Shown: positions 12,935-33,409, counted from the first letter of the stretch. The stretch is DNA of 64,000 nucleotides from an uncultured Clostridia bacterium (GCA_937930535.1 CALGKJ010000074.1:1-64000), one strand, 5' to 3'. The notes: generated by a model from the letters alone, not told the origin. Numbers and translations: made by a program.

Positions 12935-13792
12935 ATGGATGACGCAAAAAAAAGGCTAATATATGATTTAGAAAGAATTCAAAAGAATGGGTATCAACTC
13001 AATGAAGGTGAAAAAGCATGGGACTATATAGAGCTGATGCTTGAGTATATGGGCGATCCAGACTCTAGACTTCGAGATGATTTGATATACTCGACTTTTT
13101 GTGAGTGGATTTGTGAAAAGGAGTATTTTAGCAATACAGAGCTTTTGACTATATTAAATACTTTAATGGATGAAGAGCATTTGTTTTATAAAATAGGCAG
13201 CACTAATAATAATACCGTATTTATGAGAACTTTTTCAATTCTTGGAGTGGTATTAGTTCTTTTTCAACATAGGAAAAAACCTTTTATAGATTCAGAATTA
13301 TTTATGGAAACTAAGAGTAATATTTTACGCTACTATAAGGAAGAAATGGATTTTCGCGGCTATACAGAAGAGGCTGGCTGGGCGCATGGGGCAGCACATG
13401 GGGCTGACGCATTAGATGAATTGATACAATGCAGCGAAAGTGACGCTGATACGTGTAAAGAAGTTTTAGACTCAATTCAAAGGGTGTTATATAATGAAAA
13501 ATATTTATTGTGCAATGAAGAAGATGAGCGTATTACCCGTGTGGTTTCTAGAATGATCAGAAGGGGCTTAATATCTGAGCAGAATATATGCCATTGGATT
13601 GATGGTTTGGTACAATGCTTAGAAGGGGAAATGAATCGGAAACAGTATGTGGCAAGGGTCAATACTAAAAATTTTGCACGCTGCCTTTATTTTAGACTTA
13701 TGCACCATTACTGTGAGGGAGAGATTACCAATCATTTGTATAAGTTAGAAGAAAAGTTAAATCGGTTCCTTAAAATAGATAAGGAAAAATAG
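12935..13792 (+). CDS. DUF2785 protein, first gene of the NRPS unit
   Basis: A 285-residue soluble, mostly helical protein resembling DUF2785. A conserved-looking WAHGAAHGADALDEL segment (about residues 150-164), with His and Asp that could bind metal, and a C-terminal CLYFRLMHHYCEG segment are seen. There is no signal peptide or membrane helix. The ribosome site is AAAGGGGG. It ends 26 bp before the synthetase start, so it is almost certainly co-transcribed with the NRPS genes. The family has no established function; a role in regulation, immunity or tailoring is only a guess. Confidence 0.65.
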   Translation: MDDAKKRLIYDLERIQKNGYQLNEGEKAWDYIELMLEYMGDPDSRLRDDLIYSTFCEWICEKEYFSNTELLTILNTLMDEEHLFYKIGSTNNNTVFMRTFSILGVVLVLFQHRKKPFIDSELFMETKSNILRYYKEEMDFRGYTEEAGWAHGAAHGADALDELIQCSESDADTCKEVLDSIQRVLYNEKYLLCNEEDERITRVVSRMIRRGLISEQNICHWIDGLVQCLEGEMNRKQYVARVNTKNFARCLYFRLMHHYCEGEITNHLYKLEEKLNRFLKIDKEK

Positions 13793-13818
13793 AAATATTA
13801 ATAGAAAGGGTGTACGAT

Positions 13819-16800
13819 GTGGACGCCAATAAAATACTTCAGAAAGAAAATATACAAGATATTTTAGCTCTTACACCCCTGCAGAAGGGCATGCTTTTCC
13901 ACTATCAGATGAACCCTGTATCAAAGGATTACGTGGAACAGATTGCGTGTCGCATCAAGGGGAAACTGGAAGCTGAAGATATTAGAAAAGCATGGCAAGT
14001 CTTAGTGGATAATTATGAAAGCTTGCGTTCTATATATAAATGGAGAAAATTAAAGGAACCTGTACAGATTATATTGCGAAAGTATAGTCCTCCATTTTTT
14101 ATAAAGGGGGCAGCTGCAGTGAATATAGAAAGCTTTATGCGGGAGGAGATGGAGCAAGAGATAGACTTATCTGTTGCCCCTCTCCACTGCAGTTTGTATT
14201 GCATCTGTCCAGAGGAATATGTACTTATTCTGACTTACCACCATATACTATGGGATGGGTGGAGCAGCAGCATTTTATTACAAGATTTCAAGAGGGCTTG
14301 TATGGCTATTCAAGAGGGTAAGCGATATCAGCCTAAAAGTAGTGCGCAATCTTGGAAGCAATATATAAAATGGATTGGAAGCCAAAATGCTGAGAAGGCT
14401 AGAGATTACTGGGAAAACTACTTAAATGGGTTTGAGGGTGCTAACAAATTCTATGAATCTTTTAACATAGGTTCTGAAGACGAAACTGGCAGTGTAAATA
14501 TCATAATAGATAAAAAAGACTTTCAGTCTATCCATCAGATATGCAGGCATAAACATCATACCATTGCTGGTTGGATAAATGCTGCATGGTGTATTTTGCT
14601 GCACCGTTACTGTATGAGCAATGATATTGTTTTCGGCAGTACTGTCTCAGGCCGAAGCAAGGGGATTCCTGATATAGAGAGCATGGTAGGACTCTTTATT
14701 AATACACTGCCTGTACGTGTTAAGCTAGAGGAAAAGCTGCGGGTATGTGATGTAGTTTCCAAAATAGAGCTGGATATAAAAGAAAGAATAGATTATGAAA
14801 CAACACCCTTGACTGATATGAAAAGCGACTTATTTGATACAATTGTTGTTTATGAAAATTACCCCATGGCTGATACAAAGGCTGATAGTGTAGATATCGA
14901 AATCGCAGCTGTCAGAGAAGAAACACATTACACCATAGCTATTGCAGCTAAGGAAAACGAAGGCAGTCTGGATATTACTTTTAAATATAAAAAGGATAAG
15001 ATTTCTTATGATGCAATCAGAAGATTATCTAATCACTATAAAGTTATAATGCTAGAGATGGTAAAATGCTATGAAGCAAACATTTCAAGCATAGAAATAT
15101 TAAATGAAGAGGAAAAGAAACTGCTTAAAAAGTGGAATACTACAACAAGGGAGTATCCTAGAGAAAGCACTATAGCAGAGCTTTTTGAGGAAAAAGTCAG
15201 AGAGTGTGCAGATAACGTTGCTGTTAGCTGCGGAGACAAAAGCATAAGCTATCGGGAGCTGAATCAAAAGGCCAGCAAGCTTGCTGCATTATTACGTATA
15301 AAAGGTGTCGGACCTGATTCCATAGTTGGATTAATGACTAAAAAGTCAATTGAGATGATAATAGGTGTTATAGCAATATTAAAAGCAGGGGGAGCATACC
15401 TTCCGTTAAATCCTGAATATCCCGCAGAACGTATTTCATATATTCTTGAGAATAGCGGTGCAAAGCTGCTTTTAACAGAAGAGAACTCTTTTGGCAAGGT
15501 CGACTTTAGCGGTCAGATAATAGAGATAAACGATGATGTTTTCTATAATGATTTATCTGCAATTCCGGTCAGTAATAATAAAGCTGCTGACTATGCATAT
15601 ATTATTTATACTTCAGGTTCTACCGGCAGACCTAAGGGTGTAGCTGTAGGACATCGGGCTCTTCATAATTTCCTTTCTGCGCTTTATGATCAGTTTGGGG
15701 GTCGGATAGGCGTCGGCGATCACTGTTTAAGTCTTACAAACATATCCTTTGATGTTAGTGTCGGTGAGATATTTTTTCCCTTAATTTATGGAGCAAGGCT
15801 GGTTATCTTTGAAGATGAAAAGACAATAGATAGTAATAGGTTGGTAAGAATTCTCTTTAATGAAAAAATTACCTTTGCTTATATACCACCTACTTTACTA
15901 AAACCAGTATATGAGCTGATCTTAGCTTCAGGTGATACCACCACGCTCAACAAACTATTGGTAGGTGTAGAACCTATAAAGGATGATATTCTGCAAGCCT
16001 ATAAGGAACTTAATAAGGATATGCAGATAGTTAACGGCTATGGCCCTACTGAGGCTACAATTTGTGCAACTATGTACAAATATGAAAGTCACGAGCCCCA
16101 AGGTAAAAATGTACCTATAGGCAAGCCTCTAAATAATACTAGAATCTACATAATAGATAGTAATAATCAGCTATCTCCTATAGGGCTGCCGGGAGAACTC
16201 TGCATTAGCGGCGACCTTTTATCAGAGGGATATTTAGGAAAGCCGGAGCTTACAGCTGCCAGATTCGTTGCCAATCCCTTTGAGTCAGGCAGCCTTATGT
16301 ATCGAACCGGGGATCTTGCAAGATGGTCAATGAATATCAGCGGCATACCTGATGGTAATATTGAATTTTTAGGACGTATAGATAACCAAGTCAAAATTCG
16401 TGGGTATCGTATTGAATTAGGAGAGGTTGAAAGCGTACTGCGGAAACAAGAAGGGGTCAAAGAAGCAGTAGTGCTGGACCATATAGATAACAGCGGTATC
16501 AAATATTTATGCGGGTATTTTATAAAGGATGGAGAGACAGCATTAGAAGTTATACGTAATGGAATGAGAAGAGAATTGCCGGATTACATGGTGCCGGGTA
16601 TTCTGATAGAAATTGATAGAATACCAATAACGGACAATGGAAAAATCAATAAAAAAGCATTATTGGATATGGCTGCTGTACAACAAAAGGTAAAAGAATA
16701 TGAAGCTCCCCGTAATGACATTGAAGTAAAGCTTGCAGGTATTTGGCAGGAAATATTAGGAGTAGAACGGGTGGGAATTAATGACGACTTCTTTGGACTT

Positions 16801-19800
16801 GGGGGACACTCACTAAAAGCCATGACGTTAAGCGGCATGATTCAGAAGGAACTAGGAGCTGAAATTGAAGTAAGAGATATATTTGAAAAATCTACTATAA
16901 GGGCTCTAAGTGAGAAAATAGGAATAAGTAAAATTATACATCATGATAATTTAAAACCCTTAGAGAAGAAAAACAGCTATAATGTCAGCTCTGCACAAAA
17001 AAGACTCTATACTCTTCAGATGTTGGACAAGGAAAGTACATTATATAACATACCTATGGTACTGGAAATGGATGGGAAAATTGACTTTGATAAAGTGAAA
17101 AAAGGTATAGAACACATTATAGAAAAGCATGAGGTACTGCGTACCAGTTTCCATATGGAAGATGAAGATATACATCAAGTAGTTCATGAACAAGCGGCGT
17201 TCGGGCTGGAATTCATAGAAGCAGAGGAAGAGGAAGAAATCCAGAAGATATTGAAGAATTGGATAAGACCATTTGAATTGGATAAAGCTCCGTTAATAAG
17301 AGGCGCTTTGATAAAGTCAGCCAATAAACATAGGTTAATACTTGATATGCATCATATTATCAGTGATGGCACCACTTTGGGAATACTATCAGAAGACTTT
17401 GCAAAAGCATATGAGGGGACTGAACTTAAAATAGATCCAATACAGTATAAGGAATATGTCCAATGGGAAAATGAACAGAGGAAAAATGGAGTATGGGAAA
17501 AGCAGAAGGCGTATTGGCTGAAGGAATTAAAAGGGGATCTGCCTGTCTTGGAACTTCCTATAGATAAAGGCAGAAGCAGACAGGAAGACAATACTGGTGA
17601 ATGCTTTAAGTTTGAAATAGGTCCCGATGTGCTGAAGGGACTAAAAGACTTAGCTGCAAGAACAGGCGGTACTTTGTATATGGGGCTTATGGCAGGTTAT
17701 AGCATACTTTTATCAAAGTATAGCGGGCAAGATGATATAATTATTGGAATCCCCATCGCTGGAAGAAGAAATGCCCAGCTGCAAAATATAGCTGGTATGT
17801 TCGTTAATAATCTGGCTATAAGAATAAGACCTGATGGAGATAAAAAAATTGCAGATTATTTGACGGAGATAAAGCACAAATTGCTTGGTGCATATGAAAA
17901 CCAAGACTTTCCCTACGAAGAACTGATCGAAGCCTTGAAGCTGTCAAGAGATCCAGGCAGGAACCCGCTTTTTGATGTCATGCTGGTATTGCAGAATACT
18001 AATATGAAGGAGATAAAAATACCAGAGGTAAGCATTAAAGCATATGGTTTGGAAAGCAAAGGGAGTAAATTTGATATTACCTTAAGTGTTACAGAAGATA
18101 ATGATAGATTGCTATGCGAGATAGAATACCGCAGCAAGCGATATAGCAGAGATAGAATAACAGCTATGGCAGCACATTATGTAAATATACTAAAAGAAAT
18201 ACAGTATAAAAATGGTGCAGCTATTAAAGAAATCAATTGGCTGGCAGTTGAAGAACAGCAAAAAGTATTGCAGCAATTTAATAATACTTTTGTCAATTAT
18301 GAGCAAGACAAAACACTCATTGATTTATTTGAAAAGCAAGTACATAAAAAACCGGAGAGTGTTGCTATTATATTTGAAAACAAAAAGTTAACCTATCGTG
18401 AGCTCAATGAAAAGGCTAACCAGCTGGCATGGCATTTAAGAAATATGGGAGTAAGCTCAAACAGTATCATAGGAATTATGGCAGAGCGGTCTTTTGAGAT
18501 GGTTATTGGGATACTGGCTATTCTAAAAGCAGGAGGTGCGTATCTGCCCATAGATCCTGCATACCCCATGAATCGTATCAGCTATATGATTAAGGACAGC
18601 GGTATCAAGATATTGCTGACCCAGTCCAACTTAGCACATATAAACACATTTGAAGGCGAAGTTATTATGCTGGATGACAAGGGCATTTATACGGGAAACG
18701 TTTCAAATATTGATAAAGTTAATAAACCTGAAGATTTAGCATATATAATATATACCTCGGGTACAACGGGTTTACCTAAGGGCGTTATGATTGAGCATTG
18801 CGGCATATATAATACTATGAGATGGAGAATAGGGGAATTTCAGCTAAATGAAACAGACAGGGTATTACAATTGTTTTCATTTGCATTTGATGGGTTTGTT
18901 GTGAGTCTTTTTACGCCCTTATTATCTGGTGCACAAGTAGTATTACTACAAGATTGGGAAGCTAAGGATCCATTATCAATTAAAAAATATATAATGCAGC
19001 AACATATAACATATCTAGTCACTGTACCTTCATTGTATATGGCAATTCTAACAATATCCAGTGATCAGGAGCTAAAATCCCTAAGCAGAATATCCTTAGC
19101 AGGAGAAAATTTGACACAGGAGGTCGTCAAACTAAGCAAGCAAAAGAGTCCGCTGACAGAAATAATGAATGAATACGGACCCACAGAGGCTAGTGTTGAA
19201 TGTACCATTGCCAGAAATGTTCAACCAGATTCAATCATTACTATCGGAAAGCCCATTAGTAATACAAGCATATATATACTTGACAAACATAACTATCCTC
19301 AGCCTGTTGGCATACCTAGAGAAATATGTATCAGCGGAGCAGGACTTGCAAAAGGTTACCTCAATCAACCTGAGCTGACAGCTGAAAAATTTGTATCTAA
19401 TCCTTTTGCAGCATCCTTTAGTGATGGGGTTAATGCACAGATGTACCATACTGGAGACCTGGGAAGATGGTTATCAGATGGGAGCATAGAATTTCTGGGA
19501 CGTATTGATCACCAAATAAAAATCAGAGGATACCGTATAGAGCTAAGTGAAATTGAAAGTGCAATTAAGAGGCAAGCTGGTATCAAAGAGGCGGTGGTAC
19601 TAGGTCGTGAAGACAGTGAGCAAGGCAAATACCTTTGTGGTTATATCATAAAAGAAAATAACGCAGACATAACTATGGAGGAAGTAAAGGAAGGTCTGCG
19701 AAAGCAGCTGCCTGACTATATGGTGCCTAGAGCTTTAGTAGAGATTGAGCATATCCCTGTTACCAGCAACGGCAAAATTGATGGCAAGTCATTACTGGAA

Positions 19801-22800
19801 ATAAAGGTTAGCTTTTCAAAAGATGAGAGCTATGAAGCACCCAGAGATGAGATAGAAATTAAACTGGTTCAGATATGGGAAGAACTACTTGGCGTAGAGC
19901 GAATCGGCATACAAGATAACTTTTTTGAACTAGGAGGTCACTCCCTGAAAGCAACCACATTAAGTGTAAGAATCCAAAAGGAGCTAGAAGCAGAGATAAG
20001 TGTAAAGGATGTTTTTGAGGAACCGACTATTTGGGCACTAGCTAAAAGGATAAAACACAAGAAAGGTAAAATATACGATAACCTAAGTCCTTTAGAGGAA
20101 AAAGGAAGTTACCCGGTAAGCTCGGCTCAAAAGAGGCTTTATGCTATACAAATGATGGACATGGAAAGTAAACTTTATAATATGCCTTTAGTGCTGGAAC
20201 TGACAGGAATGGTTGATGTTGTAAAGATTCAGAAAGCAATAAATGCTTTGATTGAAAAGCACGAGGCTTTAAGAACCAGCTTTCATATGCATGGGGAAGA
20301 AATCGTACAAAAGATACACAAAAAAGCAGATTTTAAATTAGAATACGAAGAAATAGCAGATGAAGTTTTAGACAGGGTCATAGATAGCTGGATTAAGCCC
20401 TTTGAGCTAGACAAAGCTCCCTTGCTTCGAGGGGGAATAATCAGGGACGGAGAACGATATTTTTTAGTTTTGGACATGCATCATATTATAAGCGACGGCA
20501 CGACTATGGGAATACTGGCAGAAGACTTCGTTAAATTCTATGAAGGTGAACTGCCAAAGCCCGAACCAGTTCAATATAAGGAATATGCACAATGGGAAAA
20601 GGAGCAAAAGGAAAAAGGAAGCTGGGAAAATCAAAGAGATTATTGGAAAAAGGAATATGAAGGCGAAATTCCAGTATTGGAATTACCTACAGAAGGTATT
20701 CGTGGAAAATTAGAAGACATTGAAGGTAATACTATCAGATTTTGTATAGAAGAAGAAACAGTAAAGAATATTAAGCAATCCATTGCAGCAATTGGCGGAA
20801 GCCTATATATGGCACTTATGGCAGGCTACAGCATTCTATTATCAAAATACAGTGGTCAGCAGGATATTGTAATAGGAAGCCCGGTAGCCGGAAGAAGGCA
20901 TGCTCAGATGACAAAAGTAGCAGGCATGTTTGTTAATACACTGGCAATTAGAACACGCCCTGAAGGAGAAAAAAAGATCGGCGATTTTCTGGTCGAAATG
21001 AAGCAGAAGCTGCTGGAAGCATATGAGAATCAAGAGTATCCATATGAAGAGCTAGTAGAAGAAGTAAAAGTAAAAAGGGATTTAAGCCGCAATCCATTAT
21101 TTGATGTAATGCTGGTATTACAAAATACTGAAATGAAAGTTATGCACCTTAATAATGTCCAGATCAGACCTTATATAATAGAAAACAAGCGGGCTCAGTT
21201 TGAAATAACCCTCACTTTACTGGAAGAAAATGATAAGCTTTGTTGTGAGATAGAATATAGAAGCCGGTTATACAGCGAACATTTTATAAGGCGTATGATA
21301 AAGCACTATATCAAAATATTAAACCAGCTGGGGTTGAATAAAGAACGGACTATCAAGGAAATTGAATTATTGGAGGAGGATGAAAAGCAGTTACTACTAA
21401 AGCATTTTAATGCTGCTAGAGTAGTTTATGGTAGTGAAGAAACTGTAGTAGATTTAATAGAAGGAAAAGCAATGCTGACTCCGCAAAAAACTGCGGTTGT
21501 ATACGGTAATAAAGAGTTAACCTATGGCCAGCTCAAAAAATATTCTGATATACTTGCCATAAAGCTAAGAAAATCAGGTATTGGTCCTGAATGTATTGTA
21601 GCTGTTATAAGTGATGCTGACATAAACTATATTGTTGCTATCATGGGGATATTAAAAGCAGGTGCTGCCTTCCTGCCTATTTTATTGGAATACCCCAAAG
21701 AGCGTATTCAGTATATATTAAAGGATAGCCAAGCCCCATGCTTAATCATAAACGGCAATTTGGATATAGAAGGCTACTCAGGTACTGTTATAGATATGGC
21801 TGACAGCTATACAAATGTAGACGGCGAAGAGGCTGAAAATATCAATGAAAGCCGTGGACATTACAGTGCTTATATATTATATACTTCTGGCAGTACAGGG
21901 CAGCCTAAGGGAGTAGTAATAGAGCATAAAAGCTTAACAAACCAAGTTATAGGCTTAATAGAGGATTATGGCTATGGAAAAATGGAACATCAAATGCTAT
22001 ATAGTAAGCCTATATTTGATGTATCAGTGCAGCATATTTTTACAGCCTTAAGCAGCGGAGCCGTTTTGCATCTAATGGATGACAAATTGAAATCTGATTA
22101 TGGTGCTTTATACACATATATTAAGCAGAACAAAGTTGAGTTTATAGATATGGTGCCGGCTCAAATGGAAGAAATGTCGGAGCATCTGGAGAATAATTTG
22201 GAAAACATCCGGCTGGTGCTCGGGGGTGAGGCTTTCTCCCCGTCATTGTATCAAAAACTTCTGCGAAGTGTAAAACCTGAGGAAATCTATAATGTATATG
22301 GTCCAACAGAAACTACCATAAATGCGCTAATATACCGTTGTAAAGGGAATGAAAAAGGACGGGTTATACCAATTGGAAGACCGGTAAGAAATTACCTGGT
22401 ATATATACTGGATCAGTATGGGCAATTGCAGCCTATTGGAATACCAGGTGAGCTTTGTATTAGTGGAGAAGGATTGGCTCGTGGCTATCTAAACCAGCCG
22501 GAATTGACCGCAGAAAAATTTATACAGAACCCATTTGAAAAGCTTACGGATATGGAATCAAGCGGGAGAATGTACCGTACTGGTGACCTTGTAAGGTGGG
22601 CAGTCGGCGACGATGGCAAGGCGGATGGCAGCATTGAATTTCTTGGACGTTTGGATCAGCAGGTAAAAATAAGGGGATACCGCATAGAACTGGGAGAAAT
22701 TGAGAATGTACTGATAAAACAAACAGGAGTAAAGGAAGCTGTAGTACTGGATCGTGAGGATGGTACAGGAAGTAAATATCTATGTGCATATATAGTTAAA

Positions 22801-25800
22801 GAGAGTGAAATAGACATATCAGACATAAGAGAAGGTATGCGCAAAGAGCTGCCGGAATATATGGTTCCTGGTGCAATAATAGAGATAGACAAAATTCCAT
22901 TGACACACAACGGAAAAATTGATCGGAAGATGCTGCTATCTCTGGATGCCCTAATACCAACAGGTATAAAATATGTTGAGCCTAGAAATGAAACAGAGGC
23001 AAAGCTTGCACAAATTTGGGCTGACATATTAGGTATTCATCAGGTGGGCATTTATGATGATTTCTTTGAATTGGGAGGTCATTCCCTAAAAGCAACCATA
23101 TTAGCTGGCAGAATAAGAAAGGAACTGGATATAGAGATCGGACTTAAGGATATATTTGAGAGACCTAATATTGCGGCATTAGTGGAAGTGGTAAGACAAA
23201 GCCAGAAGCAGGAATATGATTGGATATATCCATTGGAAAAAATGGATAGCTATGCAACAAGCTCAGCTCAAAAAAGGCAATATGCTATACAGATGATGGA
23301 TAAACAAAGCATCCTATATAATATGCCCCTTGTGCTGGAGCTGACAGGAGATGTAATTGTTTCAAGGCTGGAAAAAGCTATAGCTGCCATTGTGCAAAAG
23401 CATGAGGCTTTAAGAACAAGCTTTCATCTTCAGGGAGAGGAGATTGTACAAAAAGTACATGCTCAAGTTACCATAAAGCTTGACTATATGGAAGCAGCCA
23501 ATAAAAGCGAAGCTGAGAGGATAGTAAGTAATTGGATAAAGCCCTTTGAACTGGATAAAGTACCTTTAATGCGGAGTGGAATAGTAAAAGTAGATAACAG
23601 TTATCTATTGTTTTGGGACATGCACCATATAATCAGCGATGGTACCACTACAGGTATACTAGTAGAAGATTTTATACAGGCATATGAGGGAGCACAACTA
23701 AAAGCGGAACCTGTACAGTATAAGGAATTTGCACAATGGGAAAAACTGCAAAAAGAAAAGGGCAATTGGGAAAAGCAGAAAGCTTATTGGAAAAAGGAGC
23801 TGGAAGGCGAGCTTCCTGTTCTTGAACTGCCGACAATCAAAATGCGCACTAAATGGCATAATAATGAAGGCGATAATATTACATTTGAAATAAATGAGGA
23901 AATACTGAGCAACTTAAAAAATGTTGTCAGGGAAGCTGGGGCAACAATGTATATGGCACTTATGGCAGGTTATGGCATCCTATTATCCAAGTATAGCGGA
24001 CAGAAGGATATTATAATTGGAAGTCCAATTGCTGGAAGAAGCCATGCCCAAATAGAAAAGGTTGCAGGTATGTTCGTTAATACTCTTGCTATAAGGACAC
24101 AACCTGAGGATATGAAAACAATTAAAACTTATCTGATTGAAGTTAAACATAAACTATTAAACGCCTATGAAAATCAGGAGTATCCATATGATGAGCTGGT
24201 TGAAGAGCTGTCCATTAAAAGGGATCCGAGCCGCAACCCATTGTTTGACACAATGCTGGTATTGCAGAATGCAGAAATGAAAGAAATAACCCTATCAGGA
24301 GTAACAATAAAGCCTCTTGCAGCAAACAGCAAAAAAGCTAAATTTGATATCACCCTGAATATTGAAGAAGTGAACGGAAAACTGATATGTGAAGTGGAAT
24401 ATCGAAGCAAGCTTTATTGTAGGGATATAATCACACAAATGGTGAAGCATTACATAAGTGTAATACAGGAAATTGGAGACGGACATGATAAAGCTATTAA
24501 GGATATCTGCTGGTTGGACACTAAAGAAAAGCTGCAGCTGCTAGAACAATTTAATCCTGCCCAGTGTGAAGCTATAAGCGAAAAAAATATAGTTAAGTTA
24601 TTTGAAGACCAAGCAGTAAAGACACCAAAAAATATTGCCCTTGTAATGGGAGACAAAGAATTAACATACGAGCAAGTAAATACAAGAGCAAATCAATTGG
24701 CAAGGAAGCTGATAGAAAACGGCGTACAGCCCAAAAGCATTGTAGGCATCTTGCTGGAGCGATCCATTGATATGGTTATCTCCATATTTGCTGTTCTAAA
24801 GGCAGGGGGGGCATATCTTCCTTTGGATACAGCTTACCCAAAAGACAGAATAGAATTTATGCTGGAGGATAGCGGCAGTAAAGATCTCATTAGTATGAAA
24901 CAATATGTAGAAGGGCTAAAATATCATGGGTATATATGGCATGTAGAAGCGGAAGAAGAAAAAGCCAAGGATAAAAATTGCGAAAATCTTGCAATCAACA
25001 TAAGTTCAAGGGATCTGGCTTATATAATATATACCTCTGGCAGTACTGGAAAACCTAAGGGAGTTATGATAGAACACATAAGCGCAGTAAATACTCTTTT
25101 AGCAATGCACAAATATTATCCTTTACTTGATACAGATGCTTATCTTCTAAAAACAGCTTATACCTTTGATGTTTCAGTTGCAGAGCTATTCGGCTGGTTT
25201 ATAGAAGGCGGAAGACTTGCTATTTTGGAAAAAGGGGCTGAGAAGGAGCCGGATAAGATATTCAGAGCAATTAAGGATTATAAAATCACTCATATAAATT
25301 TTGTACCTTCTATGCTAGGCGTTTTTGTAGATATGCTTGAACAGAAGAATATTAAAGAAATAAGCACCCTAAAATATATATTTGCCGCAGGTGAAGCTTT
25401 ACCCATGGAGCTGGTTAATAAATTTTTAAGCTTTGGTAGAGATATAAGACTGGAAAATATATATGGACCTACAGAAGCCGCTATTTATACTACAAAATAC
25501 TCTGTGGCTGATCTTGATGAACGTATTAATATACCAATAGGTAAACCTATACAAAATACAAGAGTCTATGTTTTAGATGAGTATAATAAGTTACAGCCTA
25601 TATGGGTAGCAGGAGAGCTCTGCATATCGGGAATCGGTTTGGCAAGAGGATATCTGAATAATGCCGGACTTACATCAGAAAAATTTGTACCAAACCCATA
25701 TACCTCAACCCATGAGGACATATCAACCTCCAGAATATATAAAACTGGAGATCTTGTAAGATGGATGCCTGATGGCAATATAGAATTTTTAGGCCGCATT

Positions 25801-27705
25801 GATCATCAGGTTAAAATAAGGGGCTATCGTGTGGAGCTTGGAGAAATAGAAAATATTCTTTGCAAGCAAGCTGGAGTTAAACAGGCTGTGGTGATAGATA
25901 GACAGGATGAACAGGGAAGTAAATTCCTCTGTGCATATATAGTCAAGGAAAAAGCTGTGGATATAGAAAGCATACGCAGTGCCATTAAAAAAGATCTGCC
26001 TGAATATATGATACCCGGTATCCTTGCAGAGGTGGAGAATATTCCGCTGACAACCAGTGGCAAGGTAAATCGTAAAGCTCTTTCGGAAATTGCAGTTACT
26101 CCATTAAGTGACAAGGAGTATGAGGCACCTAAAAACGAAATTCAGGTACAGCTGGTAAAGCTATGGCAGGAAATATTGAGCCTAAATGCTGTAGGCATAC
26201 AGGAAAACTTTTTTGAGCTGGGAGGACATTCGATTAAAGCCATAAAACTTTTAGCTAAAATTCATCAAGAAATGAATATAAAGCTGGACTATCAGACATT
26301 CTATGAAAACTCAAGCATCAAGGCTTTAGCGGACTTTATACAAGCTAATGAAGGCGGATTAAGCCAGCACATACAGCCTGTAGAATCCAAGGAATACTAT
26401 GAGACATCATATGTACAGAAAAGAATGTGGCTGTTGAATCAAATAAACCCAAATGATACTTCCTATAACATGCCGGGAAGAATTGAAATAAATGATGAAA
26501 ATCCAGTTGATGCTATTGAGGAAGTATTAAACATATTAGTGATGCGGCATGAGAGCTTAAGAACCTGCTTCATTGAGCAAGATGAAGATATTTACCAAAG
26601 GATAGAGCCATATCAACGGCAAAAACTTGATGTACAGGATTTAAGCGCTCTCCCTTTGGAAGAAGCAAAAGAAGAAGTACAGAAAATCGTAAAACAAAAT
26701 GCAGAGCATATTTTTAATCTAAGCAAGACCCCCTTATTTAAGCTGACATGCATAAAATTAGAAAAAGGCAATTTTGAAATTGTATTTTGTATGCATCATA
26801 TTATATCAGACGGGTGGTCAGTAGGAATAATTCAAAAGGAATTTATGGAGCTGTATAATTTATATAAGAACAAACAGGAAATATCATCGAAACCTCTTGT
26901 TATACAGTATAAGGATTTTGCACACTGGCAGAACCAAATGATTAAAAATAAAAGCAAAACCGCATTAGAATATTGGCAAAGCAAGCTCAACGATTATCCT
27001 GAGCAACTTCGATTACCAGAGCAGATTAATCTTGGAAATAAGGGTCAGGACGGGCATCTAAGCGTTTTGTTGGAAGGAAATCTATTTGATGCATTAAATA
27101 AAATGATTATGGAAAAACATACAGGCATGTTTTCACTATTTTTATCTTCCTTGTATGTATTTCTTTACAGGCTGACAGGGCAGACAGATATTGTTATGGG
27201 TACAGCAGTATCCGGGAGGGAGCATTATGAGACAGAAAGTATTATTGGATGCTTTGTTAACACTCTTTTGCTAAGAGAAAAATTAGTCAGAGAAGAAAGC
27301 TTTGAAGAACTGCTGAAAAAAGTCAGCAAGAATATATCAAGGGCATTGACATATCAAACATACCCCTTGGAGCTGGTTTTGGAAAAAGCAGGCTTGCAAT
27401 ACCCTGATATACAGGTATTTTTAAATCTTCTCAATATAGCAGACGGAAACAGCATAAATGAGCATCATTCTGGTCAGCCTGTACACACTAGTGCAAAGTT
27501 TGACATAGTATTTTATGTTATACCATCAGCTAAGGACATACGCTTAATCTGTGAATACAAGCGGAGTAAATTTAGTGATAACGACATTAGCTTTATGTTT
27601 GATCGATATTTAAAAACAATTGAAGAAGCTGTTTACAACGTTCAAAGACCCATAATGGAATTTGGCAATGAAAAACGAAAAAAGCTGGGAACGAAAAATA
27701 GATAA
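13819..27705 (+). CDS. Non-ribosomal peptide synthetase 1: C-A-T-C-A-T-C-A-T-C-A-T-C
   Basis: A giant cytosolic NRPS of about 4,628 residues. Approximate positions: C1 10-425 (YHHILWDG), A1 440-965, T1 about 997 (GGHSLKA), C2 1060-1475, A2 1495-2010, T2 about 2041, C3 2105-2520, A3 2545-3060, T3 about 3086, C4 3150-3570, A4 3590-4105, T4 about 4137 (GGHSIKA), C5 4190-4620. C2-C5 carry HHIISDG. There is no epimerisation domain. A leading C domain with LTPLQKGMLFH suggests an acyl or in-trans starter. Hand-aligned substrate-pocket residues (GrsA positions 235-331) are A1 DVGYLGGIC, A2 DGVVSAEVE, A3 DVQDVGVIN and A4 DVANFAIIY; only A3 looks like known Gln/Glu codes. A GTG at 13819 is preferred because GAAAGGG is 8 nt upstream; a GTG at 13810 overlaps that site. 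The stop overlaps the next gene's possible ATG. Confidence 0.92.
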   Translation: MDANKILQKENIQDILALTPLQKGMLFHYQMNPVSKDYVEQIACRIKGKLEAEDIRKAWQVLVDNYESLRSIYKWRKLKEPVQIILRKYSPPFFIKGAAAVNIESFMREEMEQEIDLSVAPLHCSLYCICPEEYVLILTYHHILWDGWSSSILLQDFKRACMAIQEGKRYQPKSSAQSWKQYIKWIGSQNAEKARDYWENYLNGFEGANKFYESFNIGSEDETGSVNIIIDKKDFQSIHQICRHKHHTIAGWINAAWCILLHRYCMSNDIVFGSTVSGRSKGIPDIESMVGLFINTLPVRVKLEEKLRVCDVVSKIELDIKERIDYETTPLTDMKSDLFDTIVVYENYPMADTKADSVDIEIAAVREETHYTIAIAAKENEGSLDITFKYKKDKISYDAIRRLSNHYKVIMLEMVKCYEANISSIEILNEEEKKLLKKWNTTTREYPRESTIAELFEEKVRECADNVAVSCGDKSISYRELNQKASKLAALLRIKGVGPDSIVGLMTKKSIEMIIGVIAILKAGGAYLPLNPEYPAERISYILENSGAKLLLTEENSFGKVDFSGQIIEINDDVFYNDLSAIPVSNNKAADYAYIIYTSGSTGRPKGVAVGHRALHNFLSALYDQFGGRIGVGDHCLSLTNISFDVSVGEIFFPLIYGARLVIFEDEKTIDSNRLVRILFNEKITFAYIPPTLLKPVYELILASGDTTTLNKLLVGVEPIKDDILQAYKELNKDMQIVNGYGPTEATICATMYKYESHEPQGKNVPIGKPLNNTRIYIIDSNNQLSPIGLPGELCISGDLLSEGYLGKPELTAARFVANPFESGSLMYRTGDLARWSMNISGIPDGNIEFLGRIDNQVKIRGYRIELGEVESVLRKQEGVKEAVVLDHIDNSGIKYLCGYFIKDGETALEVIRNGMRRELPDYMVPGILIEIDRIPITDNGKINKKALLDMAAVQQKVKEYEAPRNDIEVKLAGIWQEILGVERVGINDDFFGLGGHSLKAMTLSGMIQKELGAEIEVRDIFEKSTIRALSEKIGISKIIHHDNLKPLEKKNSYNVSSAQKRLYTLQMLDKESTLYNIPMVLEMDGKIDFDKVKKGIEHIIEKHEVLRTSFHMEDEDIHQVVHEQAAFGLEFIEAEEEEEIQKILKNWIRPFELDKAPLIRGALIKSANKHRLILDMHHIISDGTTLGILSEDFAKAYEGTELKIDPIQYKEYVQWENEQRKNGVWEKQKAYWLKELKGDLPVLELPIDKGRSRQEDNTGECFKFEIGPDVLKGLKDLAARTGGTLYMGLMAGYSILLSKYSGQDDIIIGIPIAGRRNAQLQNIAGMFVNNLAIRIRPDGDKKIADYLTEIKHKLLGAYENQDFPYEELIEALKLSRDPGRNPLFDVMLVLQNTNMKEIKIPEVSIKAYGLESKGSKFDITLSVTEDNDRLLCEIEYRSKRYSRDRITAMAAHYVNILKEIQYKNGAAIKEINWLAVEEQQKVLQQFNNTFVNYEQDKTLIDLFEKQVHKKPESVAIIFENKKLTYRELNEKANQLAWHLRNMGVSSNSIIGIMAERSFEMVIGILAILKAGGAYLPIDPAYPMNRISYMIKDSGIKILLTQSNLAHINTFEGEVIMLDDKGIYTGNVSNIDKVNKPEDLAYIIYTSGTTGLPKGVMIEHCGIYNTMRWRIGEFQLNETDRVLQLFSFAFDGFVVSLFTPLLSGAQVVLLQDWEAKDPLSIKKYIMQQHITYLVTVPSLYMAILTISSDQELKSLSRISLAGENLTQEVVKLSKQKSPLTEIMNEYGPTEASVECTIARNVQPDSIITIGKPISNTSIYILDKHNYPQPVGIPREICISGAGLAKGYLNQPELTAEKFVSNPFAASFSDGVNAQMYHTGDLGRWLSDGSIEFLGRIDHQIKIRGYRIELSEIESAIKRQAGIKEAVVLGREDSEQGKYLCGYIIKENNADITMEEVKEGLRKQLPDYMVPRALVEIEHIPVTSNGKIDGKSLLEIKVSFSKDESYEAPRDEIEIKLVQIWEELLGVERIGIQDNFFELGGHSLKATTLSVRIQKELEAEISVKDVFEEPTIWALAKRIKHKKGKIYDNLSPLEEKGSYPVSSAQKRLYAIQMMDMESKLYNMPLVLELTGMVDVVKIQKAINALIEKHEALRTSFHMHGEEIVQKIHKKADFKLEYEEIADEVLDRVIDSWIKPFELDKAPLLRGGIIRDGERYFLVLDMHHIISDGTTMGILAEDFVKFYEGELPKPEPVQYKEYAQWEKEQKEKGSWENQRDYWKKEYEGEIPVLELPTEGIRGKLEDIEGNTIRFCIEEETVKNIKQSIAAIGGSLYMALMAGYSILLSKYSGQQDIVIGSPVAGRRHAQMTKVAGMFVNTLAIRTRPEGEKKIGDFLVEMKQKLLEAYENQEYPYEELVEEVKVKRDLSRNPLFDVMLVLQNTEMKVMHLNNVQIRPYIIENKRAQFEITLTLLEENDKLCCEIEYRSRLYSEHFIRRMIKHYIKILNQLGLNKERTIKEIELLEEDEKQLLLKHFNAARVVYGSEETVVDLIEGKAMLTPQKTAVVYGNKELTYGQLKKYSDILAIKLRKSGIGPECIVAVISDADINYIVAIMGILKAGAAFLPILLEYPKERIQYILKDSQAPCLIINGNLDIEGYSGTVIDMADSYTNVDGEEAENINESRGHYSAYILYTSGSTGQPKGVVIEHKSLTNQVIGLIEDYGYGKMEHQMLYSKPIFDVSVQHIFTALSSGAVLHLMDDKLKSDYGALYTYIKQNKVEFIDMVPAQMEEMSEHLENNLENIRLVLGGEAFSPSLYQKLLRSVKPEEIYNVYGPTETTINALIYRCKGNEKGRVIPIGRPVRNYLVYILDQYGQLQPIGIPGELCISGEGLARGYLNQPELTAEKFIQNPFEKLTDMESSGRMYRTGDLVRWAVGDDGKADGSIEFLGRLDQQVKIRGYRIELGEIENVLIKQTGVKEAVVLDREDGTGSKYLCAYIVKESEIDISDIREGMRKELPEYMVPGAIIEIDKIPLTHNGKIDRKMLLSLDALIPTGIKYVEPRNETEAKLAQIWADILGIHQVGIYDDFFELGGHSLKATILAGRIRKELDIEIGLKDIFERPNIAALVEVVRQSQKQEYDWIYPLEKMDSYATSSAQKRQYAIQMMDKQSILYNMPLVLELTGDVIVSRLEKAIAAIVQKHEALRTSFHLQGEEIVQKVHAQVTIKLDYMEAANKSEAERIVSNWIKPFELDKVPLMRSGIVKVDNSYLLFWDMHHIISDGTTTGILVEDFIQAYEGAQLKAEPVQYKEFAQWEKLQKEKGNWEKQKAYWKKELEGELPVLELPTIKMRTKWHNNEGDNITFEINEEILSNLKNVVREAGATMYMALMAGYGILLSKYSGQKDIIIGSPIAGRSHAQIEKVAGMFVNTLAIRTQPEDMKTIKTYLIEVKHKLLNAYENQEYPYDELVEELSIKRDPSRNPLFDTMLVLQNAEMKEITLSGVTIKPLAANSKKAKFDITLNIEEVNGKLICEVEYRSKLYCRDIITQMVKHYISVIQEIGDGHDKAIKDICWLDTKEKLQLLEQFNPAQCEAISEKNIVKLFEDQAVKTPKNIALVMGDKELTYEQVNTRANQLARKLIENGVQPKSIVGILLERSIDMVISIFAVLKAGGAYLPLDTAYPKDRIEFMLEDSGSKDLISMKQYVEGLKYHGYIWHVEAEEEKAKDKNCENLAINISSRDLAYIIYTSGSTGKPKGVMIEHISAVNTLLAMHKYYPLLDTDAYLLKTAYTFDVSVAELFGWFIEGGRLAILEKGAEKEPDKIFRAIKDYKITHINFVPSMLGVFVDMLEQKNIKEISTLKYIFAAGEALPMELVNKFLSFGRDIRLENIYGPTEAAIYTTKYSVADLDERINIPIGKPIQNTRVYVLDEYNKLQPIWVAGELCISGIGLARGYLNNAGLTSEKFVPNPYTSTHEDISTSRIYKTGDLVRWMPDGNIEFLGRIDHQVKIRGYRVELGEIENILCKQAGVKQAVVIDRQDEQGSKFLCAYIVKEKAVDIESIRSAIKKDLPEYMIPGILAEVENIPLTTSGKVNRKALSEIAVTPLSDKEYEAPKNEIQVQLVKLWQEILSLNAVGIQENFFELGGHSIKAIKLLAKIHQEMNIKLDYQTFYENSSIKALADFIQANEGGLSQHIQPVESKEYYETSYVQKRMWLLNQINPNDTSYNMPGRIEINDENPVDAIEEVLNILVMRHESLRTCFIEQDEDIYQRIEPYQRQKLDVQDLSALPLEEAKEEVQKIVKQNAEHIFNLSKTPLFKLTCIKLEKGNFEIVFCMHHIISDGWSVGIIQKEFMELYNLYKNKQEISSKPLVIQYKDFAHWQNQMIKNKSKTALEYWQSKLNDYPEQLRLPEQINLGNKGQDGHLSVLLEGNLFDALNKMIMEKHTGMFSLFLSSLYVFLYRLTGQTDIVMGTAVSGREHYETESIIGCFVNTLLLREKLVREESFEELLKKVSKNISRALTYQTYPLELVLEKAGLQYPDIQVFLNLLNIADGNSINEHHSGQPVHTSAKFDIVFYVIPSAKDIRLICEYKRSKFSDNDISFMFDRYLKTIEEAVYNVQRPIMEFGNEKRKKLGTKNR

Positions 27706-27719
27706 TGGGGGAAAGAAAT

Positions 27720-30700
27720 ATGATATTAATAAATGAATTTTTAAAGCAGGTTAAGGATAATCCCAATAGCATTGCAGCATCTACAGAAAAAAAGCAAATT
27801 ACCTATAAAGAAATGGACGAGGCAAGCCAGACTATAGCAGCTCAAATATTGAAATATCAATTAGAGAAAGGTCATATTGCACTTATATTTGATCAAGGCA
27901 TTGACATGATCACAGCTGTTCTTTCTGTATTGAAAGCGGGGAAAACTTACATCCCCCTTTCTAACCACTACCCAGATTTACATATGTCTTATATCGCAAA
28001 AGACGCACAATTTGAAATGATAATAACCAACAACATAAATATCGAAAAAGCACATAATGTTCTCAATACATTTGGAAAACAACTGCCAATAATAAATATA
28101 GATGATTTAAACTTAATAGATGCAAAAGCTGAGAAATTTAATTTAAGTGAATCTGAAATCAATGATATTGCCTATATCCTTTATACCTCCGGCTCAACAG
28201 GAACCCCCAAGGGTGTTGTTCAAAACCATAGGAATATTTTGCATTTTGCGAAACAATATGCAAAAAGAATAGCTATTGGCAGAGATACTCGAATGACACT
28301 GTTTTCCTCCTTTTGCCATGACGCTGCCGTAATTGACATATTTAGCTGCCTGTTGCATGGTGCAACACTGTACCCAAAGGATATCAGGAAAGAAAACGAC
28401 TTTCAACACTTAGTTCAATGGCTGCAACGTGAGAAAATTAATGTTTGGCATTCAGTGCCTACTCTTTATAGGCATTTTACCTCAGCTTTAAATGGAAGCG
28501 AGAAGTTTGATGATTTAAAGTATATTGTTTTAGGCGGGGAAAATGTTACTCAAGCTGATATAGAGCGATATAAAAGCTTTTTTGGCAAGTCAGTGCTGGT
28601 AAATCTTTATGGACAATCAGAGTCTTCATATAACTCCAGTCAGTTTATAACATCATCAGATGAAGATATACGCATTAATATCGGTGAAGTTGTAGAAGAA
28701 ACACAGGTTTTTGTTGTAGATGAGAACAACGAAGAAGTAATGCCTCTGGGTGTTGGAGAAATCGTTATCAATAGCCCATATATAGCATTGGGCTATTGGA
28801 ATAGACAGGAAGAAAGTGCAAAGGTGTTTGATAATGATTCTGAATTGGGTGCTCTATACTGGACAGGTGATTTAGGACGTTTAGAAAGCAATGGTGCAAT
28901 TACATGGCTGGGAAGAAAGGATTCTCAGGTAAAAATCAGAGGTTTTCGTGTGGAATTGCAGGATATTGAAAACTGCATCCTGCAAATCAATAGTATTAAA
29001 GCAGCAGCTCTGGTTACAAAGGAAAAACATAATGGAGAGATGGAATTAATATGCTATTATACATCCACTCACCCAATAACAAAAAAAGAAATCCGACAAT
29101 ATATAGGAGAAAGGCTTCCTGATTACATGGTACCCAATACCATAATTGAAATAGACAGCATTCCGCTTACCCCAAGCGGGAAGGTTGATAGAAGAGCACT
29201 GCAAGCTCTGGAAGTTGAAGTAAAAAGAGAAATGGAATATAGCGCTCCAAAAGATGATGTGGAAGAAAAGCTGGTAAGAATATGGGAAGACATCTTGAGT
29301 ATAAAAACTATAGGTGTGCAAAACAACTTTTTTGAGCTGGGAGGACACTCTTTAAAAGTAACACTTCTAAATGGCAGAATTCGTAAGGAATTTGAAGTTG
29401 AGGTTGGAGTCGGTTATATTTTTGATAATCCAACCATTGAAGCTATAGCGAAAAAAATAAAGGAAAGCCACATAGACCAAAGAGACGTGTTAAAGCCATC
29501 AGATAAGAAAGAAAGCTATCCAGTCAGCTCAGCACAAAAGCGCTTATATGCCATACATATAAAAAATCCATCAAATACTTCATATAATATGCCTATGATA
29601 TTGGAGCTTACGGGAAAGGTTGACGTTGGCAAGGTAGAAAAGGCCATGCAAGCAATAATTCAAAAGCATGAAGCTTTCAGAACCAGTTTCCATATGGATG
29701 AAGCGAACATAGTGCAAAAAATACAAGATGAAGTTATATTCCAGCTAGGCTATCAAGATATATCGTCCAATGATGAAATGGAAAAATACATATCAGAATG
29801 GATAAAGCCTTTTGACTTGGAGAAGGCACCTTTGATGCGTGCTGATATCATCAAAAATGGAGAGAAGTATATATTGCTATTGGACATGCATCATATAATA
29901 AGTGATGGCACCACAATGAGTATATTAGGTGAGGATTTTGCCAAAGCCTACCAGGAAATAGCTATAGGGTCGGAGTCGGTACAGTATAAGGAATATGCAG
30001 AATGGGAAAATCAGCAGAAGCAAACCGGAAAACTTGAAAAACAAGCTGAATATTGGAAAAAGGAATTTGAGGGCGAGATACCAATACTTGAAATCCCTAT
30101 GGATGGCAAGCGAGGGAAAGTGGAGGATAGTGAAGGGGAAAGTATTAAATTTGAAATTCACGAGACAACTGTAAAAAGACTAAAAGCAACAGCTGCATCA
30201 ATGGGAGGCACTCTATATATGATGCTGATGGCTGGCTATAGTATTCTGTTATCAAAGTACAGCGGGCAGGAGGATATAGTAGTAGGAAGCCCTATTGCAG
30301 GAAGAAGCCATGCTCAAATGGAAAAGATTGCTGGAATGTTTGTCAATAACCTAGCCATAAGAACCCAGCCAGAGGGCGAAAAAAGCATAAAGGACTACTT
30401 ATTGGACATGAAGAAAAAATTATTAGGAGCATACGAAAATCAAGAATACCCTTATGAAAAGTTAATTGAGGACTTAAAAATTAAAAGAGACTTAAGCAGA
30501 AATCCTTTGTTTGATACCATGCTGATACTATTAAATATGGATATGAAGGAAGTGGTATTGCCAAACATAAGTATTAAGCCGTTTCATTTAAATAATAAAA
30601 AAGCTAAGTTAGATATAACCCTCATCGTAGTAGATGCAAAGGACAGGCTGATATGCGAGGTTGAGTACAGAAGCAAGCTATACAATAAAGAAACTATTAC

Positions 30701-33398
30701 ACAGATGATGGAGTATTATGTAAGCATATTGAATAATATATCAATTATGCAGGATAAAGCTATTAAGGAAATAGAATTGCTAAAGCCGGATGAAAAACAA
30801 CAATTACTAGCTCAATTCAATAATACCAAAGCAGATTATGATAAAGGCAAAACTTTGGTAGAGCTGTTTGAACTGCAAGTAAAGAAGAACCCTCAAAAAA
30901 TTGCGCTGGTATGGGGAGATAAACAGCTTACATATCAAGAGCTTAACGAAAAAGCAGATAAGGTGTCCGGTCACTTGCGAACAAAAAATATTAAGCCGGA
31001 TGATATCGTAGGAGTTATGGTAGAGCGCTCCTTAAATATGTATATAGCAATACTTGGGATATTAAAATCAAGGGGTGCTTATCTGCCTTTAGACCCTGAA
31101 TATCCTATAGATAGAATCACATATATGCTTGAGGACAGTAAAGCTAAGCTGCTTTTGACCAGCGAAGCTTTTGCTCAAAGCATACCTTTTTCCGGTGAGA
31201 TCCTCTGCATCGAAAATGCTTTGGTAAATGAGACTGCGGATATAAGCATAAGTGAAGAAAATTCATTGAGGGATTTATCTAAAACCCTGGCCTATGTTAT
31301 TTATACATCCGGGTCCACTGGCAAGCCTAAAGGGGTTATGATAGAGCACCAGGCTGTAAACAATCTGATAAAAGGTATGACAGACAGTATTGATTTTTCA
31401 TCAGATAAGGCAATCCTTGCACTGACTACTATAGGGTTTGATATGTCTATTCCAGAGGTACTGATTCCGCTCATAAAAGGAGTTAAAATAGTTATAGGAG
31501 ACGAGAATGTTCAAAAGGATTTAAGCCTTATAAAAGAAATCATTACTAAGAATAATATAGATATTTTGCATATGACTCCCTCACGTCTAAAAATGTTACT
31601 TGCGGATGAAGATTTAGACTTTATGAAAAATGTCAAAGAAATTATAACAGGAGCAGAGGCAGTGCCAGAAGACCTTGTAAATGCACTGCAAAAACGCACT
31701 AATGCGAAAATATATAATATGTATGGTCCTACCGAGGCAACGGTATGGGCGACTTGTGCAGATTTGACTAAAAGCAGCATTGTGCATATTGGGAAGCCTA
31801 TGGCAAATACTAGGATTTATATCGTAGATAAGGATAACAGGCTTCAACCTATAGGAATCCCAGGTGAAATATGTATAGCAGGAGATGGCTTGGCAAGAGG
31901 CTATCTTAATCTTGCCGAACTGACAGCAGAAAAGTTTTTACCAAATCCATTTGAACCTGGTAAAAGAATGTACAGAACAGGAGATAGGGCAAAATGGATG
32001 CCGGATGGAAATATTGCCTTCTTGGGGCGTATGGATAATCAGGTGAAAATAAGAGGATACCGTATAGAGCTTGGCGAAATTGAAAGTGTTATAAAAAGCC
32101 AGCAGGGTGTAAAGGATGCGGTTGTGATTGCAAAAGGTGCTAGCGAAGATAATAAATATTTAATAGCTTATTTGGTATTAGAAAATACAGATATTGAAGC
32201 TATAAAAAATAGTATTAAGTCAAGACTTCCTCATTATATGCTGCCAGCCTCATATATATTGATTGAAAAAATTCCACTAACTGATAATGGTAAAGTAAAT
32301 AAACAAGCACTGCTGAATATGCAGGGAACTGAGGTAAACAGAAAGAAAATTCCGCCTCGTAATTTTCATGACAACACCATTGCACAAATATGGAGAGACG
32401 TACTTAATTTAGAAGAAGTATATATACATGATGACTTCTTTCAAATCGGAGGAAATTCTATCAATATAATTCAAATTGTTAACAGCCTGAAACAAGCATT
32501 TGAAGTTAATATAACAGTAGCAGATATTATGGCATACACAACCATAATAGAATTGTCCGATTATATTGCCAATTTAGATGATAATAATAGTAAGGAGTTT
32601 AAACATGCATTCAAAATAAATAAAAGCAAGAGTAAAAAGAATATCTTCATTATTCATGGTGCTGATGGAAGTATCTACTATTTTAGACATTTAGCTAAAT
32701 TACTGGAGAATGAATACAGTGTTTATGGTTTACAGCCTAGGGGCTTAAACGGAGAAGAACCCTTTCCAGACAGTTATTTTGAGATGATTCATGCTTATAT
32801 GAAAGAAATTCGGATGATACAAAGTGAAGGACCATATATAGTTGCAGGTTACTGCATTGGAGGCTACTTATCTTATGACATTGTTAATGTATTTGAGCTG
32901 CAAGGAGATAAAGTAACAGCACTGCTTCAGTTAGATGAGGAGGCTTTCATTACGAAGCATACTCATAAATCAATATTCTTATATCGATCTATTTTGCGGG
33001 TTATCGACCTTTGGCGTAAGCTTACTAAGAAAGACAAGAACTATACTATGGAAAAGTTTATGAATCTGATACCAAAAGCAAAGCCTATCTCAAAAGAGAG
33101 GCAGGCGGAGATTCTAAAGGTGAGAAGGAGTATTCAAAAATATTTTGGTGAAGAGTTGGCACTAAACTCTTACTATGCAAATTTAGGCTTTATAAAAACT
33201 CCCACACTAGTTATCAAAGGTGAAGATAATATGCATCCATTATTTAAGAAAGAATTATGGGAAAACATGGTTAGAGGACCATTGGAATACTATGTAGTGC
33301 CAGGAGACCATGAAACGGTTATGTTTCCTCCATATGTGGACAAGTTTGCGGAAATTATATTAGAGTATCTATCCAATAATAAAGTAAACTCAGACTAA
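27720..33398 (+). CDS. Non-ribosomal peptide synthetase 2: A-T-C-A-T-TE
   Basis: An NRPS of about 1,892 residues that completes the assembly line. Numbered from the upstream ATG at 27705: A5 15-510, T5 about 545 (GGHSLK), C6 about 600-1010 (HHIISDG), A6 about 1040-1550, T6 about 1582 (FFQIGGNS), TE about 1640-1890. It begins directly with an A domain, so it completes the module whose C domain ends the previous protein. A5 is divergent: its core motif is YGQSE instead of YGPTE, and its A4 region reads FCHDAAVIDIF. Hand-aligned codes are A5 DAIHVGLYN and A6 DMPHIGMVW; neither is recognised. The thioesterase has GYCIGG (Cys at about 1717), with LQLDEEAF and GDHETV supplying Asp and His. ATG 27720 has GGGGGAAAG upstream; ATG 27705 is the alternative. 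A strong terminator follows. Confidence 0.9.
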   Translation: MILINEFLKQVKDNPNSIAASTEKKQITYKEMDEASQTIAAQILKYQLEKGHIALIFDQGIDMITAVLSVLKAGKTYIPLSNHYPDLHMSYIAKDAQFEMIITNNINIEKAHNVLNTFGKQLPIINIDDLNLIDAKAEKFNLSESEINDIAYILYTSGSTGTPKGVVQNHRNILHFAKQYAKRIAIGRDTRMTLFSSFCHDAAVIDIFSCLLHGATLYPKDIRKENDFQHLVQWLQREKINVWHSVPTLYRHFTSALNGSEKFDDLKYIVLGGENVTQADIERYKSFFGKSVLVNLYGQSESSYNSSQFITSSDEDIRINIGEVVEETQVFVVDENNEEVMPLGVGEIVINSPYIALGYWNRQEESAKVFDNDSELGALYWTGDLGRLESNGAITWLGRKDSQVKIRGFRVELQDIENCILQINSIKAAALVTKEKHNGEMELICYYTSTHPITKKEIRQYIGERLPDYMVPNTIIEIDSIPLTPSGKVDRRALQALEVEVKREMEYSAPKDDVEEKLVRIWEDILSIKTIGVQNNFFELGGHSLKVTLLNGRIRKEFEVEVGVGYIFDNPTIEAIAKKIKESHIDQRDVLKPSDKKESYPVSSAQKRLYAIHIKNPSNTSYNMPMILELTGKVDVGKVEKAMQAIIQKHEAFRTSFHMDEANIVQKIQDEVIFQLGYQDISSNDEMEKYISEWIKPFDLEKAPLMRADIIKNGEKYILLLDMHHIISDGTTMSILGEDFAKAYQEIAIGSESVQYKEYAEWENQQKQTGKLEKQAEYWKKEFEGEIPILEIPMDGKRGKVEDSEGESIKFEIHETTVKRLKATAASMGGTLYMMLMAGYSILLSKYSGQEDIVVGSPIAGRSHAQMEKIAGMFVNNLAIRTQPEGEKSIKDYLLDMKKKLLGAYENQEYPYEKLIEDLKIKRDLSRNPLFDTMLILLNMDMKEVVLPNISIKPFHLNNKKAKLDITLIVVDAKDRLICEVEYRSKLYNKETITQMMEYYVSILNNISIMQDKAIKEIELLKPDEKQQLLAQFNNTKADYDKGKTLVELFELQVKKNPQKIALVWGDKQLTYQELNEKADKVSGHLRTKNIKPDDIVGVMVERSLNMYIAILGILKSRGAYLPLDPEYPIDRITYMLEDSKAKLLLTSEAFAQSIPFSGEILCIENALVNETADISISEENSLRDLSKTLAYVIYTSGSTGKPKGVMIEHQAVNNLIKGMTDSIDFSSDKAILALTTIGFDMSIPEVLIPLIKGVKIVIGDENVQKDLSLIKEIITKNNIDILHMTPSRLKMLLADEDLDFMKNVKEIITGAEAVPEDLVNALQKRTNAKIYNMYGPTEATVWATCADLTKSSIVHIGKPMANTRIYIVDKDNRLQPIGIPGEICIAGDGLARGYLNLAELTAEKFLPNPFEPGKRMYRTGDRAKWMPDGNIAFLGRMDNQVKIRGYRIELGEIESVIKSQQGVKDAVVIAKGASEDNKYLIAYLVLENTDIEAIKNSIKSRLPHYMLPASYILIEKIPLTDNGKVNKQALLNMQGTEVNRKKIPPRNFHDNTIAQIWRDVLNLEEVYIHDDFFQIGGNSINIIQIVNSLKQAFEVNITVADIMAYTTIIELSDYIANLDDNNSKEFKHAFKINKSKSKKNIFIIHGADGSIYYFRHLAKLLENEYSVYGLQPRGLNGEEPFPDSYFEMIHAYMKEIRMIQSEGPYIVAGYCIGGYLSYDIVNVFELQGDKVTALLQLDEEAFITKHTHKSIFLYRSILRVIDLWRKLTKKDKNYTMEKFMNLIPKAKPISKERQAEILKVRRSIQKYFGEELALNSYYANLGFIKTPTLVIKGEDNMHPLFKKELWENMVRGPLEYYVVPGDHETVMFPPYVDKFAEIILEYLSNNKVNSD

Positions 33399-33409
33399 CA
33401 GCCAGAAAT

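Follow-up and report, generated by a model that had tools for sequence, protein, structure and literature searches.

The window analysed here, a 64,000-nucleotide stretch of DNA from an uncultured Clostridia bacterium, raises the question of why a large non-ribosomal peptide synthetase (NRPS) operon lies among genes of sporulation and germination. An earlier note on this DNA had asked whether the product might be a metabolite linked to sporulation or germination, had allowed that the cluster could simply be an insertion, and had proposed gerKC-spoIIR synteny in related Clostridia as a check.

Organization of the locus

The genes follow the order gerKA-gerKB-gerKC, a DUF2785 gene, nrpsA, nrpsB, spoIIR, sleB and ypeB (Table 1). 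The DUF2785 gene, nrpsA and nrpsB form a single intact operon and run in the same direction throughout. Our gene calls and domain profiles reproduced the coordinates and genes of the earlier note. Judging by the upstream sequence, nrpsA probably starts at GTG 13819 and not at GTG 13810, because AGAAAGG is well spaced 5′ of the former but touches the latter; the nrpsB start overlaps the nrpsA stop (27705). Terminators of the cluster's own on both sides, also claimed before, were recovered as predicted hairpins, the left one without a clean T-run. No transporter, MbtH protein or regulator was found within the operon, which counts against its being a secondary-metabolite operon.

No solved relative of the DUF2785 protein was found, its single-sequence fold model reached a pLDDT of 50, and the literature search returned one incidental mention of the family. 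A link of the family to NRPSs was considered and rejected, as homologues in relatives do not adjoin NRPS genes. Contig C115 (L065 about 10747-11055) holds a partial second DUF2785 copy with no NRPS gene nearby. Elsewhere in the window, positions 55293-61229 encode a likely surface protein of 1978 aa, which contains repeated IPT/TIG domains and matches fibronectin III weakly.

Table 1. Features of the gerKC-spoIIR region (window coordinates; approx., approximate borders).
Feature	Position	Strand	Remarks
gerKA/KB/KC (gerA-type operon)	8907-12736		Upstream of the DUF2785 gene
Inserted interval	12737..33504	+	gerKC stop to retained spoIIR upstream region; right edge aligned to same-genus genome G001
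Terminator-like hairpin after gerKC	12752..12812	+	Fold -25.3 kcal/mol, z -3.73; clean T-run absent
DUF2785 protein, first gene of the operon	12935..13792	+	285 aa; PF10978, 159 bits, E 1.2e-46
nrpsA	13810..27705	+	C-A-T-C-A-T-C-A-T-C-A-T-C; 4631 aa if read from 13810; 5 C, 4 A, 4 T
C1	13858..15144	+	Approx.; D-donor (DCL-type) condensation domain by solved-relative matches; HHILWDG
A1	15163..16659	+	Approx.; code DVGYLGGICK; clade of 3 inside this genome
C2	16969..18267	+	LCL-like; domain search and motifs
A2	18307..19794	+	Approx.; code DGVVSAEVEK; groups with DGTIT[AG]EVVK domains, support 0.998
C3	20101..21399	+	LCL-like; domain search and motifs
A3	21427..22929	+	Approx.; code DVQDVGVINK; Gln/Glu-like letters
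C4	23245..24543	+	LCL-like; domain search and motifs
A4	24577..26079	+	Approx.; code DVANFAIIYK; LgrA module-2-like
C5 (C*)	26392..27669	+	Approx.; terminal C domain, partner of A5 in nrpsB; 5-member C* clade, support 0.999
nrpsB	27705..33398	+	A-T-C-A-T-TE; 1897 aa; 2 A, 1 C, 2 T, TE
A5 (A*)	27717..29204	+	Code DAIHVGLYNK; SHDAA-like and YGQSE motifs; clade of 5, support 0.998
C6	29508..30809	+	LCL-like; domain search and motifs
A6	30852..32309	+	Approx.; code DMPHIGMVWK; nested in glycine-code (DILQ) clade, support 0.997
TE	32640..33374	+	PF00975, 63 bits; Cys in nucleophile position (GYCIGG, Cys codon 32853-32855)
Terminator hairpin of the NRPS operon	33405..33466	+	Fold -29.2 kcal/mol, z -7.36; T-rich tail
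Retained ancestral spoIIR upstream region	33505..33597	+	Aligns with G001 gerKC-spoIIR spacer, p 0.002 vs dinucleotide shuffles
spoIIR	33635-34315		Downstream of nrpsB; followed by sleB and ypeB

Architecture of the assembly line

The two synthetases comprise six modules, the fifth of which is split, with its C domain on nrpsA and its A-T on nrpsB. All six A domains that had been read by eye were confirmed (four in nrpsA and two in nrpsB). Across the ~19.6 kb of nrpsA/nrpsB there were no internal stop codons, catalytic motifs were found in every NRPS domain, and the C-A-T core motifs (HHxxxDG, the A-domain core motifs and GGHS) lay in open frames. A5 has YGQSE in place of YGPTE, and T6 has GGNS in place of GGHS. 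The line is closed by a release domain, the C-terminal PF00975 TE of nrpsB; neither epimerase nor methylation domains were seen in nrpsA/nrpsB. The C2, C3, C4 and C6 domains are 55-61% identical among themselves and at most 46% identical to other C domains, a pattern that indicates duplication or homogenization within the cluster.

Phosphopantetheinyl transferases (PF01648) gave three matches in the genome, one of which, of Sfp size (233 aa), is encoded near 93 kb of the same contig, C74. The surrounding region (about 91.0-97.4 kb, L083 6987-13428) holds this Sfp-size transferase next to a flavodoxin, together with two glycosyltransferases and two stand-alone proteins that weakly resemble C domains, and is possibly another small biosynthetic cluster.

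The first condensation domain and the length of the product

The best solved relatives of C1 were the C domains of SrfA-C (~207-209 bits), TycB (177 bits), BacC (168 bits) and PvdL (158-160 bits), compared to less than 85 bits for other C classes, and C1 lay inside a 23-member DCL-like clade (support 0.998). The earlier prediction of a hexapeptide holds in that there are six modules. The exact length does not stand; since C1 belongs to the D-donor class and the cluster contains no donor, six residues are only a lower bound. Because C1 has no upstream partner, the cluster may include more than the genes listed here.

In one alternative, nrpsA and nrpsB constitute the downstream end of a longer line, in which an E-ended synthetase encoded elsewhere feeds C1 with a D-aminoacyl or D-peptidyl chain in trans, so that the product exceeds six residues. 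The class of C1, with its DCL-like clade and its matches to SrfA-C, TycB, BacC and PvdL, points in this direction, as do contigs C113 and C200 of this genome, on which genes with a DCL-like first C domain come after E-ended genes. However, no gene ending in an E domain adjoins nrpsA, and a hexamodular NRPS from genome G224, a single protein, starts with a DCL-like C domain too and contains no partner for it. We therefore regard a trans-acting donor as possible but somewhat unlikely. The G224 protein (contig C14; 6559 aa, from Clostridia of another family) likewise has six C-A-T modules and a TE, which belongs to the same Cys-type group as the nrpsB TE (37% identity). It differs from the present cluster in being one protein instead of two, in its Ser-, Cys-, Asp- and Gly-like codes, and in having no A* domain (see below).

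In the pathway that we favor, nrpsA and nrpsB would work in series. The nrpsA protein would load and join four residues and also provide the C domain of module five; nrpsB would supply A5-T5, then add residue six and release the chain by its Cys-type TE. C1 could be fed in trans by another protein with a D-aminoacyl or acyl starter; alternatively, it could be a starter or idle domain. The peptide product would thus contain at least six residues.

The split fifth module

The A5 domain belongs to a compact group, here called A*, whose members scored 740-887 bits, compared to at most 485 bits for all other A domains among the matches listed from 391 genomes. The A* code is DA[IMV]HVGLYNK; four members are found in this genome (this cluster and contigs C50, C85 and C105) and one on contig C15 of genome G003. 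Each of the five A* domains begins a gene, and each upstream neighbor gene ends in a C domain. These five C domains (C*) form a clade of their own (support 0.999). The congruence of the A* and C* clades suggests that C*/A* is one inherited unit. A broken A* relative is present in G336. Kin of A* without the usual Asp (TVIHVGLLAK, AVIHIGFVAK) were observed on C50 as well as in three genomes, all from a single other genus.

The G003 cluster (same family, other genus) is a two-gene NRPS cut by the contig end. Its first gene ends in C*, and its second starts with an A* whose code is identical to that of A5 and ends in a Cys-type TE that is 37% identical to the nrpsB TE. It differs in one extra module after A* and in other residues that are Val- and Gly-like. 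In the G003 genome, gerKC-spoIIR is uninterrupted, and the NRPS cluster lies on another contig. We tentatively propose, as an idea still open to considerable doubt, that C*/A* is an undescribed conserved split module for an unusual building block, reused in at least four clusters here and in one other genus, and that the product is chemically new.

Substrate codes of the adenylation domains

The substrate codes were re-derived at the usual positions from an alignment, with the last residue (Lys) assumed; the amino-acid names attached to them follow published code tables. After re-derivation, the earlier view that none of the codes fits a standard amino acid well still seemed fair. The one exception made earlier, A3 as Gln/Glu-like, was the wrong one: the letters are alike, but A3 is only 39-42% identical to the genome's own Gln/Glu-code domains, shares no clade with them, and is placed outside them by the tree. 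The A1 code was also found on contig C58 and the A4 code on contig C113 (A4 group support 0.95).

The A4 domain matched module 2 of the linear gramicidin synthetase LgrA, which, going by the known product, incorporates Gly. This match reached 505 bits, compared to 387-395 bits for A1, A2 and A6, and for that reason the A4 substrate is likely a small residue. For each of the A domains tested (A1, A2, A4, A5 and A6), the best solved relative was LgrA (PDB 6MFY). Its formylation and epimerase domains are absent here, and the overall sequence and organization differ. The A6 domain derives from glycine domains, with a code that has since drifted.

The thioesterase

In the alignment, Cys stands for Ser in the nrpsB TE, whereas Asp and His are retained. 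Cys is also found in the nearest TE relatives, those of G003 and G224. The best solved relative was the TE of Acinetobacter AB3403, a single-module protein, unlike nrpsA/nrpsB. The AB3403 structure (PDB 4ZXH) shows GWCFGG at the nucleophile position, and the match amounts to only 61 bits.

Comparison with known clusters

In the plasmid search, the ten best places matched nrpsB at only 31-37%, and the NCBIfam models showed generic domain similarity only. One of them, the AusA equivalog, scored above its cut-off with nrpsA; the score was a sum over repeated domains and not a sign of membership, and this assignment was rejected. A search of the NRPS literature on the nearest named groups returned nothing relevant.

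NRPS content of the genome

The genome, a draft in 252 contigs for which NRPS counts are approximate, contains at least 114 condensation-domain matches on dozens of contigs. A domain census of the fetched stretches counted 128 C-type domains (including a few epimerase-like ones), 89 A domains and 112 T domains; the NRPS open frames covered ~399 kb, roughly 8.5% of 4.69 Mb. In a first look at 391 Clostridia, no other genome gave more than 57 NRPS candidates, compared to 178 here (approximately three times the next), and other family members had 0 to 15 C-domain matches. The GC and tetranucleotide composition of the NRPS contigs is that of the chromosome. Contamination is argued against by a gene on the NRPS contig C50 that is 86-89% identical to family members, though this gene may be mobile. 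At C46:17705 and at about 54.4 kb of C130 (L096 about 4.4 kb), the first A domains carry PLTHDMGMIG, as do fatty-acyl-AMP ligases, suggesting that these lines are lipopeptide or hybrid ones.

To our knowledge, few non-ribosomal peptides of strict anaerobes have been described. PMC8456703 lists 0 or 1 NRPS cluster in each of four Clostridium genomes; a survey, as cited there, found PKS or NRPS genes in a third of 211 anaerobe genomes.

Insertion between gerKC and spoIIR

The genes gerKA-KB-KC-spoIIR-sleB-ypeB form one contiguous run in genome G001, of the same genus, and throughout the family, and the gerKABC-spoIIR order extends to more remote Clostridia, Tepidibacter, Thermoanaerobacter, Alkaliphilus and Clostridium among them. 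Among family genomes containing the join, the gerKC-spoIIR spacer is ~0.1-0.2 kb in most and 0.45 kb in G006. No NRPS gene lies between gerKC and spoIIR in any relative examined, whether of the same genus, of the family or among the distant named Clostridia. Since gerKC and spoIIR are contiguous in relatives, the operon is a lineage-specific insertion. The proposed synteny check thus found gerKC and spoIIR adjacent and the cluster absent, and the simpler of the two earlier suggestions is borne out. From 33505 onward the sequence can be aligned to the spacer of G001; the upstream region of spoIIR is therefore still the ancestral one, and insertion of the operon took place between it and gerKC.

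The two junctions share no direct repeats longer than 10 bases, and no repeat points to a mechanism. A duplicated spoIIR promoter at the left junction was considered and rejected (alignment p 0.22, with a control spacer scoring higher). In Clostridiaceae bacterium M8S5, ~7 kb of other DNA (L174 2809-10001) separates gerKC and spoIIR, a different insertion in the same gap. A second small insertion was observed at 2134-3817 of the window, where a low-GC pair (weak HipA_C-like and HIRAN) separates two genes that are direct neighbors in the genome of the same genus.

It could still be argued that the product of the operon is a metabolite linked to sporulation or germination, and that the site reflects shared timing with gerKC and spoIIR. 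What speaks for this reading is the location; the left spacer also holds a sigF-like string at 12750 (1 mismatch in 12; p 0.03, uncorrected over 36 tests), which overlaps the gerKC hairpin. After counting tests, nothing above shuffles was found for sporulation-sigma promoters in a weak scan with a B. subtilis consensus. The operon is missing at this site in every relative examined, so the association is not conserved; hairpins part it from both neighbors, spoIIR retains its own upstream region, and the genome contains dozens of further NRPS loci. We therefore consider the link proposed in the earlier note very unlikely. Because the genome holds ~100 such modules on dozens of contigs, the location among spore genes is probably a matter of chance.

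A decaying, silent remnant is likewise very unlikely: a transporter and a regulator are missing from the operon and the A5 and A6 codes are divergent, but the ~19.6 kb are stop-free with all catalytic motifs intact, and the C2, C3, C4 and C6 block has been kept alike.

Meaning of the locus

The locus is thus best explained, with good though not full confidence, as an intact orphan NRPS operon for a secondary metabolite, which in this lineage became inserted between gerKC and spoIIR. The peptide would more likely serve as a secreted bioactive or signaling compound than as a sporulation factor. Beyond the earlier note, the analysis adds the TE with Cys at the nucleophile position and the conserved split module C*/A*, the cluster itself being of a known NRPS kind. 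The spore-gene location reflects an insertion, and a search for a sporulation metabolite would probably be misdirected; better targets are the conserved split module and this anaerobe itself, whose number of NRPS modules is exceptional.
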